Shown here piece after piece: positions 988-43,100 of a stretch of 64,000 nucleotides of DNA (position 1 is the stretch's first letter; each line of letters starts with the position of its first letter). A program made the position numbers and the translations under genes. Origin of the DNA: Allacma fusca (lineage: Eukaryota > Arthropoda > Collembola > Symphypleona > Sminthuridae); the NCBI GenBank assembly GCA_947179485.1, contig OX359248.1, positions 51,470,386 to 51,534,385 of the forward strand, written 5' to 3'. The notes beneath the pieces are model-generated. The model worked only from the letters and a program-made list of their open reading frames with translations, made no database searches and had not been told where the DNA came from.

Positions 988-3900
988 GTAAGTCAAGTCA
1001 GCTTGTACTTATATTACTGTATGCTCAAAGACATGCTAACAACAAAAGCTTTTCACAGAGCTTTTTATAGAGCTTGTTCCACTTACCATAAAGCAAGGCA
1101 TAAGAAGCCACAATGCTCCGCGATTTTTTTTAACCACAAATGCTTTCTGTCCTGACTTTCTCACACTCACTTCCTTCCTTATTTTGTGTCTTCAACTGAA
1201 TATTACGCTCAGCCAAGCGTACACTTCTTATATGTATGTATATGGAATGTGCGTACTTCCTTTCTATGTAATTACTTATTCGCGTAAATATATATATACG
1301 TGGATCTACAAGGAAAAATTCAATCTTGGTTGTTTGAAGATGAGGTTTCAGTTCTGTAAAGAGTGATGAATGGCTTTTGTTTAAATTTACTCAACCTTCA
1401 AGCTTCAGAATTAATCTTTCTGAGCAAGATAAGTACCTTGATAGTGTGGATACTTAAACTTCTCCTTCCTATCATGTATGTAAAATCAAATATTTGGGTG
1501 CAAAAGAAATGCTTAACGCCTGTGTGCTTTTTCTTAGGTTGTGGGGGAACGTTGGCAGCTTTGGAAGGTAAGAAAGCCAATATAATTTCTTCTGATTTCC
1601 TCTGTGATTTATGAATCCTTTTGATTCCCAAGATGTTCGCCCTTAATTCTTCATGAAACTTTGTCTTGTATGTATTAGGTATTCTTCAATACCCCCATTC
1701 AAGTAGTCTGCAGTATAGGCATAACGAGCAATGCGTCTGGACAATTGAAACCACTGAAGGGCATATTTTGAACATTACATTTACTAGCTTTCATCTGGAA
1801 GCGTCTTCAAACTGCTATTCTGATTATCTTCTGGTAAGGACTTATTTTTGGATGAGCCATCGTAAACCTTTGAATGGTTGGGTAGCTAAACTGTTTGTGT
1901 ATACAACAAAATCGGAACCAGTTTTGTTTGTCGTTAATTTATACATAATGCGTGTACCCTCCATAATGTTCTTTCATTATATCGCAAAGATTTCTCAATG
2001 GAAATCATCAGTCATATGATGTCTCTGAGGGGTGTAGTTTTTGGCATCACGTATCGTACAGTAAGGTTCGGGATGGGGTGTTAACTCATGTATGTAATGA
2101 GTATCGGTCATAAATGCACGATTGGACGGTTTTAAATAAGCTGTTAGTGCTCAAACATATTACGATTCGGTATCATGCTTGACTGCAATTCCTTGTGGAC
2201 GGGTCTGTTTACACAGTACCCAAGAATCCTAATCGGTTCACTTGTTATGATCTTAATGCTGTTTGGAATATATTTGCAACTGATTAAAATTCTTCTGGTG
2301 TCCTGAGGGGCTACAGTCCTGAATTCAGTTTCGTATGATTCTTGTAGATTAACGACGGAGCGACTGCAGACTCACCTATCATCGGGAGGTTTTGTGGTCA
2401 GGAGTTACCCTTGGGAGGTAACATCAATTCCACTCATAATGTCATCCGCCTGACTTTCATGTCTGACAGCTCAGTAACCGGGTTAGGATTCAACCTCTTA
2501 TGGAATACAACCCTACCACGTAGGTCTAGCATACAATTTGCATCATACTTTCAAGTATAGGCTTTTTATGGCTTACATTTCAATTTTATGCAATGTCAAG
2601 TCGCTTCAGCCTTCCAATTACACACGGGGTTATATTTTTAAAAACTTTATTTACTGCTTCATAGGATATATATTTTTTTAATTTAAGCTGGAATTGAGTT
2701 GTAATTATAAACGTGAGGGGCTTTCACTTGCTTGTGTGAATACTAAATAAGCTAAATCTCTGGAAAATTGGCAAAAGTCTTGTACATTCCTTGCTTCGGT
2801 ATATTTTAGAAATATTACTATTATTTTCGTAAGAAGTTTGACTTACAGTTTTTCCTGGATACGTGATTGTATTCATATTCGTACTTCGGTTCCGTGCATT
2901 GGAACAATCGAATTAATTTATTCATACATTTTTGTACAGATTGTGGCGGGTCAATTACAAACCAAACACATGGAGCAATCAGGTTTTTTAACAAAGTTAT
3001 TTATAGTTTAATAAAATTTGTGGAATGATGGTTTCTGAAGAATTTCGAATGCAATAATGCTTGAATTAAGGAAGCTTTTTTTAACGTTTATAGTTCTCCG
3101 GGGTATCCAAGTAACTACCCTCACAATAGGGACTGTGTCTGGACGTTATCAGTAAATCTTGGCAAAAGAATCCAACTTGTTTTTGCCACCATGAGACTGG
3201 AGATTCATCCCAATTGCTCGTTTGATTACTTGCGAATTTTGGACGGTTTGGAAGATAATGCTCATCAGTTGGCAATTTTCTGCAATACTTCCTTACCTTC
3301 ACCAATTGTCTCCACTGGACCTCATTTAACCTTTCGGTTTCACTCAGACTTCTCTGCATCTGATACTGGTTTTCATGTTGCATTTGCAGAGGTTCCAGGT
3401 ACTATTTTTTAAGTTTTCGCTTAAACAATTTTTTTGATGAGACAGTATTTTGCTAGTCTTAAAATTCAGTATGAAAATCGGATCTCTTCCGAAGATAGCT
3501 GGAACAAACATTCATGGAAAGTGTTTGAATAATTTTGATGCGCTTATTAAGACGGTTATTTCTCAGGTTTACAACACCTAGTACACATTACACATACCAT
3601 GTGAATACTTGGTATTAGGCATGAGCGTATCGTTCAATTTTAAAATATCGTTAATATCGGTATCGTTAACAAGAAAAATCGCGATACCGATATCCATGAA
3701 CGATATATCGGTATTTGATTCAATTTAAAACAGTATACCAGGGACGGGATATCGGAAAAATACGGATTTAAATTCGGATTCGAATACTTTCTAGTTTCGA
3801 TTTCAATTTTAATTATTTTTAATAATACTTAAAAATTTGAATTCCGATACGGATTCCAATATATTTGAATACTTGCTGAATTTGAATTCCGATTCAAATA

Positions 3901-6900
3901 CTTTTCGGATATTCGTACAAAAAATGGGAATTTATTCAAAAGAACAATTTAATCGCAAAAAAATAAGCTATACATAACACATTAAGCGTTTTTGCATCTA
4001 TACATTACCACGCAATCATTTAATATAAATTTAAGCGCAGAAAACACACGCTCAACTGAAATTTCAGTAACTAGAAAAGCAAGGATTGATCCAATAACAT
4101 TTTTGAAAAATTCGGAGTAATCTGTTAAGCTGTCTAACTACTTTTCCGGTTAGTTTTTTCTGACAGTATATATTTGCAAATCGATTTGGTTGATAACACA
4201 TGGTAACTAAAATGCACTTCAACGGAATTAGTTTTACGCATCCCCATGATGAGAACAAGATTTAAGAAAGAAGAAACTTGATTCACTTAATCGTCCTATA
4301 AGACCTGCACCATGCGGCTATCTCATCCTATTTGTAGGAATTTTTACAAAAAGGGCTATAAATCACTGCCCATTACGAACCATACACTTTTCGTTTACCA
4401 AACGTTGGTTACTTGCCCTTTGGGTTTTATAATTGCATGTGTGCGGTTTTCAAAAAATGTTACCTATGAACATTTTCTCGCACGTGACAGTATAAAACCC
4501 AATGAAATCGATACTTTATTGGAATCGGAATTCGTTAAAAAATATTCGAATACCGATTCGAATACCCTTGTTTTTATTCTAATCCAATTTCGGATACAAA
4601 TACCGTGGTGAATTGTTTTCCGATTCTAATATCGATTCGGATACCCGAATTTTTTGAATATAATTTCGATTCTAATTCCGATTCGAATTCGAATTCCCGT
4701 CCCTGCAATATACTAATTTTGATGAAACTCTATCAGATTTAACATAGCTTTGCAGAATATTCAATATTTGTAATTTATTCTCTTTAAAACAGCCTGTAAA
4801 ATCAAATTCCTTGAAAGGTTGAACTTTAAGACCTGTAATACTTCACTTATGACATGCCCTGGATTTTTCCCCTGATTCCGTTCAATTCAAACTGAACCAA
4901 TCGTTTCATTTTTGCCTTGAATAGAATCGAAATTTTCGGACTCAGAATTGAATTGGTCCGAGCACTATCGACCAGCTCAAACAAACTAAGTTTGAAAATG
5001 CATGATTACTACAAATAAGCATTTTGTTTTGTTTTTTTTTGCATTACTACAGCTCTAACTTTGAATTCAGACAAGTATTTTTAATATGCTCGAGTTTTAT
5101 CCGCTTTGCAGACGTTTAATAGTTTTAGTTAAAAAACAAGTATAGGGACACAGGGTGGCATTTTTGAAAATTAAACTTCCTATGTACGATATTGAAATTA
5201 ACCGATATATCGCTTTAAAATTGCGAGAAATATCGTGACATATCGTTGCTTGAAAATGTACGATATGGACCGATATATCGTATCGTCATATCGTTCCGCT
5301 CATGCCTACTTGGTATATATAAGCACTAAACACTGTTTTTTGTAATGTGTAAGGTGCTGCAAATTCTTCACTCTCATTCCGTCAGCCCATATAAGGGCGT
5401 CGAAACATATTCAAATCTTCCGTTTTTAGGGTAGCGCAGCGCCCTTGTAACATACAGTGGGTGTGGATGTGTCTGTCGTAGCGATAACCGAAGAGTGCGT
5501 GTACCGATTTGAACTAAACTATACAGAGTGAACAACAGTATAATAACTACTTACAATTATGGATTGATTTTGGTTGATGTTGGTTCATTGGTTTGACCTT
5601 AAAAATTATTACGAGTAATGTATGTATTTATGTATTCTTACTGTAATTCTTGTCAACACAATAGGTAACGTTTTTACTAATGGCAAATATGCCGATGAGT
5701 TAATTGCGTTCACAAAGTACACTATGGTTATAAATGGTGGTTAAAATAAGGACTAAAATACGTAGTGACTATACATATATACCATTAAGACCACTCATTA
5801 ATTCCATAATTAATGTTATATCATGGGCGGTCTAGAATTCATAACAACATTTCGGAAACGCTGTTCACGCAAATCTAATGAGGATTCATTTGAGTCTAAT
5901 ATCTTCTTTCTGTCTTTACAAGAGGTCAGTTATATGAATTGTTTTAAATAGTTGAAATAGAAATACATTTTTGATTTATTTCATCTTTACCTATTTTTTT
6001 GCTATCACGTGGACAAATGTCGACTTAGGAAAATGATATTAGGTTCAAATGAGTCCCATGAAATTTTCTGCAAACACATTAGAAATATTATTTCAAACGC
6101 ACGACCGTCCGTGATAAAAAGACATCATCGAGAATTCCTCATTTTCTGCATCTATCCGAATTTTATTTCTGAAGATGAAAAGTCCCAAACTTGTTCTCAG
6201 TTCTTCCGGGCCATGTTCACAAGTATCCATGTAGTGTAGACCTGTTTGTTGGCTCTCTGAGAAGTCAATTCAATTTTTTAGAAGTGAGCTTCAAGAGATA
6301 TTTTTAAAACAATTTGAAAACTGTTTAAACCTCTTAGAAGCTGCTCAAGTCCCCCTTATAAGTTTGTATTGTCCGTACATCTGACTGTACACACGATGAC
6401 TCAACAACCCGGTGTTAGGTTTTTTGAAACTTGTTCTACATATTCTACAGATAAAGCTTGGGATTTCGTTGATGAACTGAATCGACCAAACCGTTTGGGA
6501 GTTACTCGGGTTGTTTGAAAATTCAGTAACCCGTTATTGCCATTATTGGATTTTGTCCAAACTTGGTAAAGCTGTCCACGCGTAAAGCCTAGAGGATTTA
6601 GAAGATAAGTTCACAAGTGCTAGTGCTGCCCATTTGAGGTTGGAACCCTTTATGCTGCCTGAAATCGTTGTAAAGCGAAATATCTGCAATTTGTTAATAC
6701 AGGTTGCCACAAATCGTGTGTTTCTCTGTAGTCCATATGAACGGCCGTGGTAAAAAAGATAATAATTACCCCCATTTTCTAGCGATTAGTTTTCCGATTT
6801 TTCAACATATTTTATTAGCCCATGCTAAGCCCAGCGCTCAAGGTAATGCAACAAAGTCAGAATTTCTTTAAAAAAAGGTAAACTGAAATTTAGAAACGGT

Positions 6901-9900
6901 TTGATCAAATGTAAAACTTCCAAAATACAACTGTGAAGCTTGTTTGGAGCTCAACTCAGAATGCACAAGCGCGAAGCAAGATTTAGCCACAAAAGGTTTA
7001 TGACTTACAAGTTAACACCGTTAACTGCTCATTCAAGATCTAAACAAGATTTTGTGTGAGTTCAGGTACCTGAGCCGATGTCCCTATATGCATAAAAGAT
7101 CGAGCCACCTCGCGCTGGTTTGAGCGGGAAATCGCGCCAAGTTTAACACTCCTAATTCCAAGGATAGGGTCCCATCTTTTTACTTAAAATTGATATCCCA
7201 TCCAAAAAATGTTAAATCCCACGAAACGAAATATAAACAAGCAAGAGCGAACTGTTGATTGTGTAACTCAACATTTACTATCTTAATGCGAATCGTATTG
7301 AGTTTTTGAGATGCGAGTTTCAAGTTATAATCTAGTTCAGACTTGAGTTTTAAGTTGAAATCTAGTTCAAACTTGAGTTTCAAGTTATAATCTAGTTCAA
7401 ATTGTGCTAAACTTGAATCCAACTTGAAACTTGAATGTAACTTAAAATTTGAGTGTAATTTAAAAGATTCGTTCAAACTAGAGTGTAACCTGAAATTATT
7501 CTAGTTTGAAATTTAATGTAACTTGAAACTGTAGTTTCCGCTGCAATGCAACTTGAACCCAAGTTGAAACTCCGGTTTGCCTTGAAACTCGAGCTTTAAC
7601 TGCACCTTACTTGGAAACTCGAAACGTGCACTCTTTCTTTAGTTTCACAGTGCAGTCGTATTTGAAGGGAATTTTTTTGGAATCGAAGCTGTGTTCTTCG
7701 AACTTGAAACTTGAGTATTATAGTGAGGTATGAATAAATCTCCGAAAATTTCTTATGGGATTTAACATTGGAAATTTTAAGTAAGACAGGGACGATCCTC
7801 TCCCTGCGATTAGGAGTTTTAAACTCCGGCACGATTTCCAGCGCGAGGTGGCCCGAACGTTTGTTAGTAGGGAGACTCACGGTTTATGGCCTGTACAAGT
7901 TTAGTTAGGGTAGGTTAGCAAAGGAAAAGTTAGCACGTGAATCTTTCTCAGATGGTTTGGTGTGCTGAAAGGATCCGAATTCATCTAGAAAATGGGATGT
8001 TTCAAATTCGGCAATGTAATGACATACACATAAGTCAGGGTTTTATAGAAACTTTCTCAATATTCTATCATCAACCTTCAGACTGACATCTTTCTGATGG
8101 CTTTCTCTCAAAATGTAATTTTGGCTTGGATCTTTCCAAATTTTCTTTCTTTCTTTTGCTGGTCCAGCGGAGCGAAACCAAACTTTGCAGTTGCATGCGT
8201 GTATCTACTCATCTCCAATGGCTTCTAAATAAGCGTTTTCACTTGAGTTCCCTCAAGTGAGTGCGATACAGATAGCTTTATGTCAGTTTTGTTTACACTG
8301 AGAAATGGTCGGATGATATATTAAGTATGTATGCGCACATATGGGACCATAATATAAGTCAATCTAGTGCAATACATTCCTTGTGTACACAGGCGCATAT
8401 ACATATATCTGATAGTTGTAGTAGACAAATAAGTTCAGTTAATTTCTTGGACAAATAGTTCATCTTACCGTATGTGTGTGCTAAAGTGCTTACTGATCTG
8501 AAATGTCCCATTTATTTGTAATAGGAGTCCCAGGATGCGGTGGTGTATTAACTGCTCCAGGTTAGTTAGTTTTTAATGTTTTTATACAGTCATTAAACGT
8601 ATTTAATTTCTTTTGTAAATATCCCAAGTAAATACACACACACATGTATCTGATCATAGTTTGTCTCATGATCATGATGTAATGTATTAATGGTCCAGCG
8701 GGGATATTTAGCTCACCGCATCACCCAGAACCATACGCTCACGCATTGGACTGTGAATGGCTTATAAGGCTGCCGCCTTTGGAAACTGTCTCTATAGAAT
8801 TTTTATCCTTTGAAGTTGAAAATGCTCGTAATTGTCGCTACGACTTTGTGGAGGTAATACCCTTTATATGAAATATATATGACCTTGCTCGAATTGAATG
8901 TTTAATTATGTATCTACATTGCATGGAAATAACATTCAAAAAAAAACTTTCTCTTGCTCGTAATTACTAAATGTATTCTCTGAAGTTAGCGTAGTTTGTT
9001 TTGCTGTGTTTCTGCTCACGCTATGAAAATTTTATGATTTCTTGTGTTTCTGAAGGTTCGGGAAGGAAATGGTCCGGACGGCAACCTCGTTGGAAGATAT
9101 TGCGGTTACAACATTCCTCAGCCTTACCGGTCCTTGACAAATAATTTATTCATTCGTTTTCATTCCGACGAGTCCGTGGCTCATCAAGGCTTTAGGATTA
9201 AGTATGAGGCTGGTAATATAGTTTTCTTTTAGTTAACGTATAAGAAGATTGTATTGTGTTATAATGTAAATGCCAAGAACGTCTGCTTGGTACATCACAG
9301 TGCATTTACTTCTATTCTTTCATTCATCTTACTGTTTCCTTTTTACTTTCATTTCCGCGAAAAATGTTATTCTATTTCCCCTTTCATATATGTAGCCTGT
9401 GGAGGAGTTTTTACTCAGGAAAATATTATGCTGCGAAGTCCTTATTACCCTGGAAACTATCCAAAAAATCGAGACTGTGTGTACCTCATTTCACAACCAG
9501 TTGGGAAGGCCATTCAGCTGGATTTTATTGACTTTGACATTGAAGCTGCGTATGACTCGAGGTGTCTGTTTGACTTTTTGGAGGTAATTGATAAAGGTAT
9601 GGGAGGATTTCATGGCCGTCGACAGTATTTTTGAGTAGTTTCAATCCGGATCCTGTTTTAGATAAGAGATGGCGACAACGAGAATTCAACACTAATTGGG
9701 CATTATTGCGGTGGAAATGTTCCTGAAACTATCTTATCTTCCATGAATTATCTGTGGATACGATTTAAAACTGATGGAAGTCTCCAGAACAAGGGTTTTA
9801 TTGCCAACTTTTCAACTATAGATGTTGGCTGTGGGGGTATTCTACGGGGTAGCAAAATGGGTAAAAAATTATCATTGAAATGATAAAAAAATTTACAAGT

Positions 9901-37170: not shown

Positions 37171-40100
37171 CTATGTGCGGAGGTAGTAGGGCCAGTAGAT
37201 ACAGTTAAACAAGGCGAAGGCGACGGGGAAAGCATATCTGCAAGTCTCGTCGATATTCCGAGCTTGAGTCTGGGGATCTTGGACACGCTTTTTCTTCGAT
37301 AATGAATTTTTGTTTCCTCTGACGTCCTCATTGGCCATTGGGGGATACGATGCATCACACAAACTACTGTGGTCTGGACTGGAAACTCCAATGAACTGTG
37401 GTTCCAGATGATTTGACAATTTTCCTTCCTCCCGGTCACGGACCTACAGCAATAATTCACGTACACTTTCCAAACACATTTCTCCACATATCCTTCCAAA
37501 CTACTATCATAACTTGGGAGATTTCTCTTTAAAATTGATCTTTACCAATAAGATGTGCTTATTCATTTAAGTACATATTTTCTATCCACTCAAAGCCTGA
37601 CATAAAAAAATCCTATTATATTCTAATCGACTACCTATACAGTGCAATACACGCTACTGTTCACGTGACCGTATCGTAAGGTTGATATGGATGTCGTAAG
37701 GTATATGGTAAGTTACTATATATCTTCCAATAAAATCATAAAAAGGATTTTTGATTAAAAAAGGTAATTTGAACCAATCAAGTTTTACAATCTATGATTT
37801 ATGGCGTCATGTGAGATTAATTGGAAGCGTTTCGAAACATCTCAATGTTGTACTAAAAATGTGAATGCTCATAAAGTCATGATAGAGTGAAATTATCTCA
37901 TAAATATATGTACAAAAAATTTAATAATCATGAAACGCTCTTGTATTGTAAGGAGAAATATTATTATTGTGAGAAAGCCGAGTGTACTCGAATTCTTGGA
38001 TTTTTTCTCCTGAAATGCAATCCTGATGTAATTTTGTATTTTTAAAAGTTTAATAAGGACTTGGGTGCCATGAGCAAGGAACACAGGCATTGAAAGGAAA
38101 AAGACCTATTAAATTTACAGTTTTATTCCCCGTAGTGCAAATGCATTACAAGTATGTGCTCAGTTTCAGAGAAACTATACAGGAAATGATCAGTGACACA
38201 AAAAGAGTTGTGGATCCTGTGGAAAAAACATTTACAAACTAATAGATTGATTTTGTCGTGTTATCAAGCGCAAGAAAGAAATAAGTTCCTTGTGATTCCT
38301 AACTTTTGATGAGAGTAATGAACTATAAGCTCGCAGCTGATAATATGTCTGGAAGTTCTGGGTCGGGGACGAAGTATCAAAATTTAATCAACTCAAGAAG
38401 TTCTTTTTGTTGGCGCTCCTATAAATGCTCTGGCTCACATGTAGTGTGTATCATCAGTCGTTGTCTAATTATAAGAGGACAATGTGAAAGTTTTTACCTG
38501 CTGCACGATCGTGCTACACGTAGAAGGAGCTTCCTCATATTTCTCAAGTTTCCGACACCCATTGACTCCAGTGCTGCAATTATGATCACTGTAATTTCCC
38601 GTCTGATGATGAGTTATCGGATAAGTTCGACACCCTTCCTCGGAGAAACACTCGTTGAGATCGCTCCGACGAAATAAATAATTGACAAAGGTGAACTCCA
38701 GCAGGGCCAGAAATACAAATGCTGTGCACATAATCCAATTAAATTTTTTTAATAAGTCTCCATCTCTACAGAAATCACGTATTCCATCAGAAATTCGACA
38801 CTCTTCAATCCTCGGTACATATTTGGTAAGGATTTTAAAATCTGCCCTTGTAAATACAAAGTTTGTATTTGCACATGAAACTTTTTCATCAATAGCGAGG
38901 GGGCTGGATACAAAATTCCCTTTGAGAAATCTACACTCTGCACTCTAACTATAAAAATAATTCCAAAAGAATCATATTTACTCAGTACCAAGGGGAAGCT
39001 CTTGGGAAGAGAAGAATTAACACAAGAATTGTTAAAGTGTTCAAATATGTTTACCCTGATAGAAAAAATGCTCTTATGGTGAGAGTCTCCTAAGGTGAGA
39101 CAGAACTGTATCCCACTTCACGTATCATGATATTACCATTTCAAAGATTCATTGCATTAGCCCAATCCCAGAGGCATTTGCGAATAAACATGTGAATTTG
39201 TAATGACATCTCCTTGTATACAAATTGAGTATAATACAATTCTTATATTCTCAAGTAGTTTTAATCCTGTGCTTATTGTTAGAGCCTGTCATATTTTAAG
39301 GAATGTAATTAGGCCCATGAATGTATGCAGAGTTACTAACGCAACCCCATTTGCACACCTTGAGGGTAAAAATTTACGAAAGTCATAATAAATGCAGTTC
39401 ATTATTTCATGACTGTGTATAAAATAGTAGCTGATGAACGCGTCCTCTGGGGGGATGTTTCTCCAAGTATCCCATTACCATTCAATATTCATAGGTATGT
39501 TTGACTACAGCTTCCCTACCCGTTACAGATATCCTCAGGAGCAGAAGTCCATTCATGAACATGTGTTCCCAATTTTCAAAAACTCACAGCATGTCGATAT
39601 CCCTGGGAGATTCAGCTGGGAGTATAATTAGGAATATTGTACTAAAAGGACCAGGACTTCAAAGGAGCGTAGTCAGAGCAACGAAAGTTATGGACCGAGA
39701 TGAAGAGAAACGAGTGATTTTTTTCTGACTAAAATAGTATCATTTACATTCATGATCATGTGAACCGTTCCCATGATTTTGAGTACCGTCAGCCTACAGT
39801 ATTAATTACCGGTGTGTAGCTTACATTGATTCTAAAAATCAAGGCTTTAATTAATTAAGAGTAGAATTTCAATTTCAAAAATTGGGACTTACCGGTGCAG
39901 GTACCTAGCCAAACGTCGATAGCTGGAAAGCAAATAGAATTTGATATTCATTTACATACATCTGTGAGAGTGCAAGTGCACTAAAAATTACAAAACTGTA
40001 ACAGTAGATACAGAGTAAAGATAATTTCAGGGAAATCCTTTACAGGATTTAATGACTTAAAATGAGAATATTTGAAGCAGCAGTTGAGTAACAAATGGAG

Positions 40101-43100
40101 AATACAAAAGGAACGCCCCTACATGTAGACTTGCGGCACTACTACTTATGTATGTATGGGACAAGGGAAAAAGTTTTGACGTATCAAAACGAATTGAGAC
40201 AATTCCATGGAAATTTTTCCAGTGACAATGACAACTATAAAATCTTGAGTTGATGGAGTCCTCATTACAAATTAAGGCCTTGGGCATCCGGTTTAATTGA
40301 AGCAGTCGTATGTGGAGAGTAAAATTGGGAAAACATGTGACAAGTTGAAAAACTCCGGAGAGGAAAAACTTGTGCAAGGGAATGTAACGACAGTCAGGAG
40401 TTTTAAATTGAAACAGTTTTAGACAGGGGGAGGATTGACAAATAGCATGCAAGGAATTTTTAAATTGTTCAAACCACAATGTCCTTGATATTCAAAATGA
40501 CAAAGAGAGTTTCAATAGACAGTGATACCTTTGACGTAGCTAGCCTGAGGTAAATTTTCTTGTATACCTGAAATTAAAAATATACAATTCAAGCCGTTAC
40601 CGATAAATAGCAAAGAAGGGTAGTAAAAATTAAGTACCTGGAAGACTACAGCAAAAGAGGATACTTAACATGCATTTACCTATCTGTACATATGCAAACC
40701 ACCCAGAGCTATAAAGATCCTTACGTTTGACTATGCGTGTACAGAGTTATATACCTGTAAATTCATTGCTTTTACCCAAAGGAAAATGAATTTCCCAGTA
40801 TGACTTAAAATGTCATCCGAAATGGTGGAAAGTGCTCAAGATGTCCCATGTGAACTCACTCTATAGCTCAAGTACCATTTTGTGCTTTCTTTTACTACCA
40901 ACTACCCAAGCACTTTCACTTCATGTTCCACTTGGCCACTCATTCGTGGTATTTTCCCGACCCAATAAAACCAAGCTTAAAATCATATGTGTCCTGATAT
41001 ATTTTACTACCATCAAAGGAACAACTTACTTGTAGAAATGGAGGAAACCGTCAAAAGGGTGGTAATGCCTGCAATTTGAAACAATTTCTATTCGTCAGTA
41101 TCTCCTTGGCATCAATATCCATTATTTATTCCAAAACTCCGAAAGTTGAAGGAGAACTCACCTAGAGTGACCCGACCAGGAACTGAGTTCACATCCATCC
41201 AAAAGGATACCCAAGATATGACAACCATGAGTATCGTCGGTAAATAACTTTGTACCAGATGAAAACCTGCAGTCAATCGAGTACAATTAAAATTTTAATA
41301 ATAAATGATGACAGATCCGATTGTGAGGCCACTGTCACAGAATTAAATGTAAGGCAGTCAACGCTGAAATCTCTTCGTACTCACCAAGCGACCTAGATAG
41401 ATGGAATTCAGCTACCAAGCAGCTGTAATTTCCTGCAATTTTGAAAGGAAACATTGGAAAAATCAAAACTTTTACACACATCACTCAAAAGTGGTCAAGT
41501 CATGAAAAAAATAAATACTACTCAAACTACTCCCATGTCAAGAAAGTATGTGCATATAGTATATGTATGTATGTAGTCCAATTTCCCGTACCAATTTGGG
41601 CGGAAGATTCTGGTCGACAATATTTCGTCTCAATTTTGTCCAGCTGAAATAAGTTGAGTTCCACCGGAGTAGTTCTGACAGGCTTGTCCGGAACCCATTC
41701 CAACAAAAGTTCTTCGACAGTTTTTGAGACTGAGAATCAATCAAAAATGGATTTTATTTAATGCCCTTGAATTACTATCCCCTTCCGTGATTACGTCTGC
41801 AGACCCTACTCAAACTCATCATACAAACGACATTCAGAACAAGAACAGGGAGGGAAGAAAAAGGGTAATCATTCTTAATTACATTAAGAGAAGCAAATCG
41901 AAAAAAATCCCTGTCCAAAAGGACTTATTACAGATTATAGCGTACAACAAATCTTTCAAACTACGGAAGCCATAAGTAGCGAAGGAGTAATGCATTTCCT
42001 AATTCCTTTTTCTCGGGAAATGAGGAAAATCCCTCAGAAAAATGTGGTAAATAATATACGAGGGGAATAGGAAAAATAATTATTTCCCAAATAAAATATC
42101 ATTGAGGGAGCTTAATCCCGTCATGGGAATGTCATGTGAGCTTATGATAAAAGAAAGCATGCAACCCCCCAGACTGAGACACATCCCAGGTGTAGTATGA
42201 GATAGGGAGTTTCGGAAGAAAATATTTTATACTACTGAGGGTACTTCCATATGTAATAAATTATATATCTATGTATACAGTATAGCAAAGAATGGATAAG
42301 GGACAAGTACAGTAATACGAGATGCAGAGACCCACAGAGGAGTGCGTTTTGTGTGAACACGACTTTTTCCTTCTCAACTATTCCGACGAGAGTGGAATTG
42401 AAAGGGAAGTAAATGTATAACAAACACATTGGATACAAAAGCATGCTCACGCATAAAACCCATCTTTGGATGGTCCTGAATGATCTTAAGAATCTCCTCC
42501 AATGACAGTTACTAAGAGAGGGAGAGAAAGAGAGAGAGAGAGAGCGGGAGAAAGTAGACGGAGTTGGAAGTGAGGATAAAAAATGACTTAAAATTGAGAG
42601 AAAAGTGCCAAAAGAGTATTCAAGTATCTACAGATAACACATAAGAAAAAAAAAAGAGGTTTGGGGAAAGAGTGGAAAATCTTGTCGACTTACAACTGGC
42701 GACTTCCATTGTGCATGTATGCCGGTCAAGAGGAAATTTTGATAAGTCCATCATGCAGGAAAATGTCACTCTCAACCTGTAACATAGAAGAAAAAATTCC
42801 CGACAAGAATATCAAGCAGGAGAGTTATGTTCCCTTCCAGCTCTACTCCTACCAGGGCCGGATTACCTCATGACATTCTATCCCATGGCCTGACACAGAT
42901 CATACAGACTGTACATACTAGGAACATATGTGTGGTAAATGTATGTTCCAGTAATAAGAAAACTTTTGGAAATGCTTCCTTCAATTTTCTCCTCACACCA
43001 GCCAGCTCCCACGGTCTGGGAGTCCCTGGCCGTGTGACTTCCAAGTAGTAGATGGAAACGTGCCTGTTAGTATTACTCTCATGTTTACATTTCATAAGTA

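Follow-up and report, generated by a model that had tools for sequence, protein, structure and literature searches.

The 64,000-nucleotide stretch of the Allacma fusca genome analysed here (contig OX359248.1, positions 51,470,386 to 51,534,385; hereafter the window) contains one short transposable element lying inside another, and we are close to certain that this arrangement results from two successive insertions of hAT-type elements belonging to different families, the outer element first and the inner element later. The site of insertion appears to be an intron of a cubilin-like gene. An earlier note, made from the sequence alone, had described the same nesting. Its description of the outer element, with perfect 12-bp terminal inverted repeats (TIRs) and an exact 8-bp target-site duplication (TSD), was confirmed to the base, and the 10-bp TIRs and near-exact 8-bp TSD that it placed inside the outer element were recovered as well, with one mismatch between the two copies of the TSD. 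The features that define the two elements are as follows, in coordinates of the window:

3608-3615: left TSD of the outer element, CTTGGTAT; exact, and fitting the pattern nTnnnnAn
3616-5308, plus strand: outer non-autonomous hAT-type element, delimited by TIRs, TSDs and genomic copies
3616-3627, plus strand: left 12-bp TIR of the outer element, TAGGCATGAGCG; one of a perfect pair
5297-5308, minus strand: right 12-bp TIR of the outer element; the other of the perfect pair
5309-5316: right TSD of the outer element, CTTGGTAT; exact
3731-3738: left TSD of the inner element, CAGTATAC; differs from the ancestral CAATATAC by a single A-to-G change
3739-4705, minus strand (the ancestral gene strand): inner non-autonomous hAT element, 967 bp, delimited by TIRs, TSDs and the 39 other copies fetched
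3739-3748, plus strand: left 10-bp TIR of the inner element, CAGGGACGGG; one of a perfect pair
4696-4705, minus strand: right 10-bp TIR of the inner element; the other of the perfect pair
4706-4713: right TSD of the inner element, CAATATAC; the ancestral state, as read in outer copies that lack the inner element

The outer element is 718 bp long once the inner insertion and one copy of its TSD are subtracted. Subterminal repeats crowd the CpG-rich ends of both elements, ATATCG/CGATAT in the outer and GATTCGAAT-like repeats in the inner. When the 64 kb were scanned for CpG count in overlapping 150-bp intervals, with ties in count split by the observed/expected ratio and no prior choice of motif, the 12 top ranks were all taken by the ends of the two elements, and a host interval at 5376 equalled the last of these in count. 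The end motifs ATATCG and CGAAT were chosen after inspection, and the probabilities of their counts are therefore overstated. Chance pairing of short repeats was gauged with 60 dinucleotide shuffles of the window, searched for elements of 50-4000 bp. A 12-bp TIR pair with an exact 8-bp TSD, the quality of the outer element, was found in none of the shuffles. Pairs with 10-bp TIRs and no more than one TSD mismatch averaged 0.23 per shuffle and never exceeded 2, versus four in the window, two of which are the outer and inner elements.

Both elements belong to multi-copy families in the source genome (392,743,791 bases in 91 contigs); the copy numbers given for the two families, and for the transposase remnant discussed below, are lower bounds (only the best candidates were scored). 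A search with 3600-5320 gave 1521 candidates for the inner family, and among the best 40, which were scored, 39 lie outside the window and are 91-100% identical. At 37 of these 39 places the similarity starts within 6 bases of window position 3739 and stops within 12 bases of 4705. All 39 copies were fetched with 100-base flanks: 33 have an exact 8-bp TSD and 35 one with at most one mismatch, and these 35 TSDs are all distinct and their flanks unrelated. The window copy differs from its nearest copies by 0.41% and 0.62%, and from the next by 2.6%; the first two values suggest recent movement of its subfamily. At a separate locus, L313, a relative of the inner family (2524-3477) lies ∼390 bases from a fragment (3864-3970) that resembles the right part of the outer element at 71% over 108 bases.

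For the outer family, the right-hand query 4714-5330 gave 786 candidates, the best 40 of which were scored and 39 of which are not the window. The similarity stops exactly at window position 5308 in 31 of these, and the 12-bp TIR TAGGCATGAGCG has 230 exact occurrences genome-wide, versus 5 for the reversed control pattern. Fifteen of the 39 places fall in a tandem array (C1:14558088-14589146, L331), and ten of the other 24 were fetched. Exact 8-bp TSDs, which differ from copy to copy, flank seven of these ten dispersed copies, and both TIRs, with at most one mismatch each, are present in nine of the fetched stretches. The copies with common ends and different flanks that the earlier note had asked for are thus found in both families. 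By these structural marks (8-bp TSDs, and short TIRs at which similarity ends) the outer element would be of hAT type in the same way as the inner one. Two longer copies of the outer family, 1390 and 1464 bp, have exact TSDs and open frames of at most 83 amino acids. In the array, the 2035-bp unit holds a whole 813-bp element of the outer family; the same exact TSD, GTGAATAT, flanks it in both units read, and the units are 99.1% identical over the 1960 bases compared: a single insertion was amplified together with its surroundings.

The order of the two insertions is given by the dispersed outer copies, in which the inner element is absent from the site in ten of ten. The empty site reads CAATATAC in seven of them and CAATACAC in two, and L320 lacks these eight bases. 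With seven of ten empty sites reading CAATATAC, this was most likely the target, and the left copy of the inner TSD would later have become CAGTATAC. In L320 exactly the eight bases CAATATAC are missing at the inner insertion site, which may be a simple deletion or a trace of excision. These copies also bear on the idea that 3616-5308 forms a single composite transposon, mobile as a whole, of which the inner part is an integral piece. The two elements are indeed found together in the window with intact ends and intact outer TSDs, but the outer sequence was not found in the 39 inner copies and their 100-base flanks, the most similar 40+40-base flanks of inner copies are only 49% identical, and none of the ten dispersed outer copies carries the inner element. 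A composite unit is refuted by these separate copies and the empty site, and we give it practically no credence. The claim of two hAT-type families, with the outer inserted before the inner, stands on copies that share the same ends, on their different 8-bp flanks and on the empty inner site.

The element ends, the multi-copy families, the differing TSDs, the empty site, the order and a full-length inner-family relative carrying BED and hAT-dimerisation domains are read directly from the genome, and a history can be reconstructed on that basis. A short outer hAT-type element lacking a transposase gene first entered the cubilin intron by cut-and-paste, duplicating CTTGGTAT. An inner hAT element of another family then entered it near its left end, duplicating CAATATAC, and a single base in the left inner TSD mutated afterwards. 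Each element was presumably moved in trans by a transposase from a longer relative, through recognition of the TIRs and subterminal repeats as described for Hermes (PMC10368747).

Read-throughs scanned against Pfam, in six frames for the right part of the outer element and in three for the inner element, gave no transposase. The inner element retains a trace of one, together with the junction of an internal deletion:

3985-4137, minus strand: 51-amino-acid open frame, a remnant of a hAT transposase C-terminus with the core SVERVFS, identified by its frame match in L302
4126-4135: junction left by the internal deletion, where ∼2.5 kb present in the 3441-bp element L318 is absent

The earlier statement that both elements lack a transposase accordingly holds for whole genes and has to be amended for the inner element, which keeps this hAT C-terminal remnant. 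Across all six frames of the window the pattern S.[ED]R.FS is found a single time, and 11 of 4000 Markov resamplings of the inner element contain it. An open frame bearing the motif recurs in 24 of the other 39 inner copies. When the genome was searched with the remnant, at least 150 places out of 358 candidates scored as matches, and 18 of them, those with longer frames or greater divergence, were fetched. In nine of the 18, an exact 8-bp TSD brackets a pair of ends that have no more than one mismatch each, and three are near-full-length relatives of the inner element. The first, L302, was refetched whole as L318: it is 3441 bp long, has the same 10-bp TIRs as the inner element and an exact TSD (TTCGTATT), and its two ends match positions 1-388 (85%) and 397-967 (76%) of the inner element. 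The others are L301 (3183 bp, exact TSD CATCCTGG) and L300 (∼3.1 kb, TSD with one mismatch).

In read-through scans all three relatives match Dimer_Tnp_hAT above the cut-off of 21.4 bits (L302 23.4, L301 25.2, L300 28.8). The zf-BED model, with a cut-off of 20.6 bits, is matched by L302 at 25.3 bits and below the cut-off by L301 at 19.4, and has no match in L300. The two domain matches of L302 are in different frames, and the match of the remnant lies, judging from the coordinates, in the same frame as the above-cut-off Dimer_Tnp_hAT match and within it. The inner element is assigned to hAT because of its 8-bp TSDs, its short TIRs and the domains of its full-length relatives. By these alignments it is related to a 3.4-kb BED/hAT element, from which it differs by an internal deletion, and it keeps a C-terminal hAT remnant. 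An intact transposase of the inner family was not found, the frames being interrupted in L318, L301 and L300. Searches with the remnant itself gave no match in NCBIfam, one irrelevant match in the PDB (E 0.84), and 19 matches in a pattern scan, among which no relative was confirmed.

Of the autonomous copy with a hAT transposase to which the earlier note had looked for support, the inner family shows domains in interrupted frames, and the outer family offers a candidate. This candidate, L332 (C1:64369630-64373706), was found by its TIR pair. It is 4045 bp long with an exact TSD (ATAAGTAT), its two ends match outer positions 1-278 (82%) and 526-718 (88%), and it has an open frame of 556 amino acids bearing motifs that resemble hAT catalytic motifs. 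The sequence of this frame matched neither a Pfam hAT model nor a PDB chain. A frame of 110 amino acids upstream of it has a weak, sub-threshold BED match (17.6 bits, cut-off 20.6). A second relative of the outer family, L333, is 2839 bp long, with one mismatch in its TSD, and gave no hAT match. That L332 encodes a hAT transposase for the outer family is thus only a candidate proposal. We give a rather low probability to the broader suggestion that the mobiliser of the outer family belongs to a hAT lineage outside Pfam's models.

A number of observations weigh against two clean hAT insertions and against the reading of the remnant. The inner TSD is inexact, with one of eight bases mismatched (CAGTATAC versus CAATATAC); the empty site in outer copies explains this mismatch by mutation of the left copy. 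Four of the 39 inner copies have TSDs with 2, 4, 5 and 6 mismatches. In the outer family, seven of the 39 places run 4-15 bases beyond 5308 and one stops short, two of the ten dispersed copies have 3 and 4 TSD mismatches, and another of the ten, L327, has no left end in the fetched stretch; an exact TIR lies ∼1.25 kb further out, and L327 may therefore carry another insertion. Set against the majority of the other copies, the window outer copy diverges by 5.7%, the others by 1.0-3.6%, and it is without four stretches of 12-48 bp, so that it belongs to another subfamily or is older. The 51-amino-acid remnant taken alone matches Dimer_Tnp_hAT at E 0.19, below the Pfam cut-off, and this match is gone in read-through scans of 321-322 amino acids in three frames of the inner element; a stricter motif pattern, also tried, has no match in the inner element. 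On the gene strand, the 3.1-3.4 kb relatives have open frames of at most 128-145 amino acids inside the element.

The sequence around the outer element gives rise to another alternative, in which the outer element landed in an older palindromic miniature inverted-repeat transposable element (MITE), that is, a third element occupying 3569-3615 and 5317-5360. These flanks form an imperfect inverted repeat when joined (CAACACCTAGTACACATTAC versus CAGCACCTTACACATTAC), and their local alignment score was equalled or exceeded in 1 of 1979 random pairs and in 16 of 2049 adjacent-flank controls. The joined 95-bp site also folds at a z of −2.88, a stability attained by 1 of 200 shuffles. The two matches of the 95-bp site in the genome are its own two halves; nor did we see, on our own reading, a clean TSD outside the flank repeat. 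The third surrounding element was dropped once the site had matched only itself in the source genome, and we consider it very improbable.

The subgroup of hAT to which the elements belong was considered from their target sites. Ac-type elements have the target consensus nTnnnnAn (PMC8961557, PMC10368747) and Buster elements nnnTAnnn (PMC3517528), and for the third group, Tip, target preference is described in the text of the naming paper as uninvestigated (PMC3942097). The TSD of the window inner copy fits nnnTAnnn and not nTnnnnAn, so that its own TSD (CAGTATAC/CAATATAC) would make it a Buster element by the published consensus (PMC3517528); the exact TSDs of L318 (TTCGTATT) and L301 (CATCCTGG) do not fit nTnnnnAn either. 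Among the 35 inner-family copies with at most one TSD mismatch, however, 19 fit nTnnnnAn and 7 fit nnnTAnnn, and T occupies position 2, and A position 7, in 26 copies each; the background among 8-mers of the window is 10.0% for nTnnnnAn and 8.0% for nnnTAnnn. A place in the Tip group is a further possibility (PMC3942097). The Buster assignment from the copy's own TSD was dropped once the TSDs of the family had been counted, and we now think it unlikely. Of the 12 distinct exact TSDs in the outer family, 11 fit nTnnnnAn (counted by eye). Both families thus tend towards the Ac-type target, and the label Ac is a putative one, drawn from target preference.

The insertion lies downstream of a coding stretch of the host gene, the exon edges of which are taken from domain matches:

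3089-3385, plus strand: CUB-coding stretch upstream of the insertion, identified by domain matches

The domains of the host gene are ordered EGF, then CUB, and cubilin is the top PDB match of the CUB stretch upstream of the insertion. CUB coding resumes downstream, near 8695, from which an intron of ∼5.3 kb is estimated, with edges again given by domain matches. The domain order and the cubilin match support the placement of the insertion in an intron of a cubilin-like gene, as the earlier note had it, and the effect of an intronic position on the host gene would be small. The same intron holds a fold-back-like element at 7094-7862, in which long imperfect inverted repeats enclose repeated AACTTGAAACTTGA units and for which a clear duplication was not seen. 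Elsewhere in the window, a further possible TIR/TSD pair lies at 39566-40331 (TTCCCAATTTT, with AACATGTG exact) and may be due to chance, and an open frame on the minus strand at 38468-38944 has a sub-threshold Pfam match (E 0.014) to neurotransmitter-gated ion channels, in their transmembrane region. Neither ARAGORN nor Rfam (gathering scores) gave a match within the window.

Among known systems, the Mar elements of Drosophila resemble the inner family in their short TIRs, in their 8-bp TSDs and in having arisen from a full-length hAT element through internal deletion, with amplification afterwards; Mar is however assigned to Buster by TSD consensus and transposase, whereas the inner family favours the Ac-type TSD and has other TIRs (PMC3517528). 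Likeness to the Ac-type elements hobo and Hermes consists of the nTnnnnAn preference, the subterminal repeats and the BED zinc finger in the full-length relative of the inner element (PMC8961557, PMC10368747), but, unlike that comparison set, neither element of the window codes for a whole transposase. Insertion of one element into another was likewise reported for a 600-kb region of Calliphora vicina, where 11 of 322 repeats (3.4%) were nested (PMC3630058). In comparison, both partners have intact ends and TSDs here, and other copies preserve the empty site. Searches of IMG/VR viral contigs with 14-base versions of the two ends gave 112 and at least 120 matches, which are taken as chance because blastn of the elements against all 232 loci found nothing at E 0.01. 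A literature search returned nothing on the TIR strings together with hAT terms or on nested hAT/MITE elements, and none of the listed matches to the TIR strings concerns transposons by its title; we do not claim that the families are unpublished.

The finding adds little that is new on how hAT elements work, and a nested insertion is an ordinary kind of event, here with unusually complete evidence. It shows that a hAT subgroup called from a single TSD can mislead, the window inner copy being Buster-like and its family Ac-leaning. It provides a clean and fully polarised case of nested transposition: from one genome one can read the two families, the empty site and which way the TSD mismatch arose.

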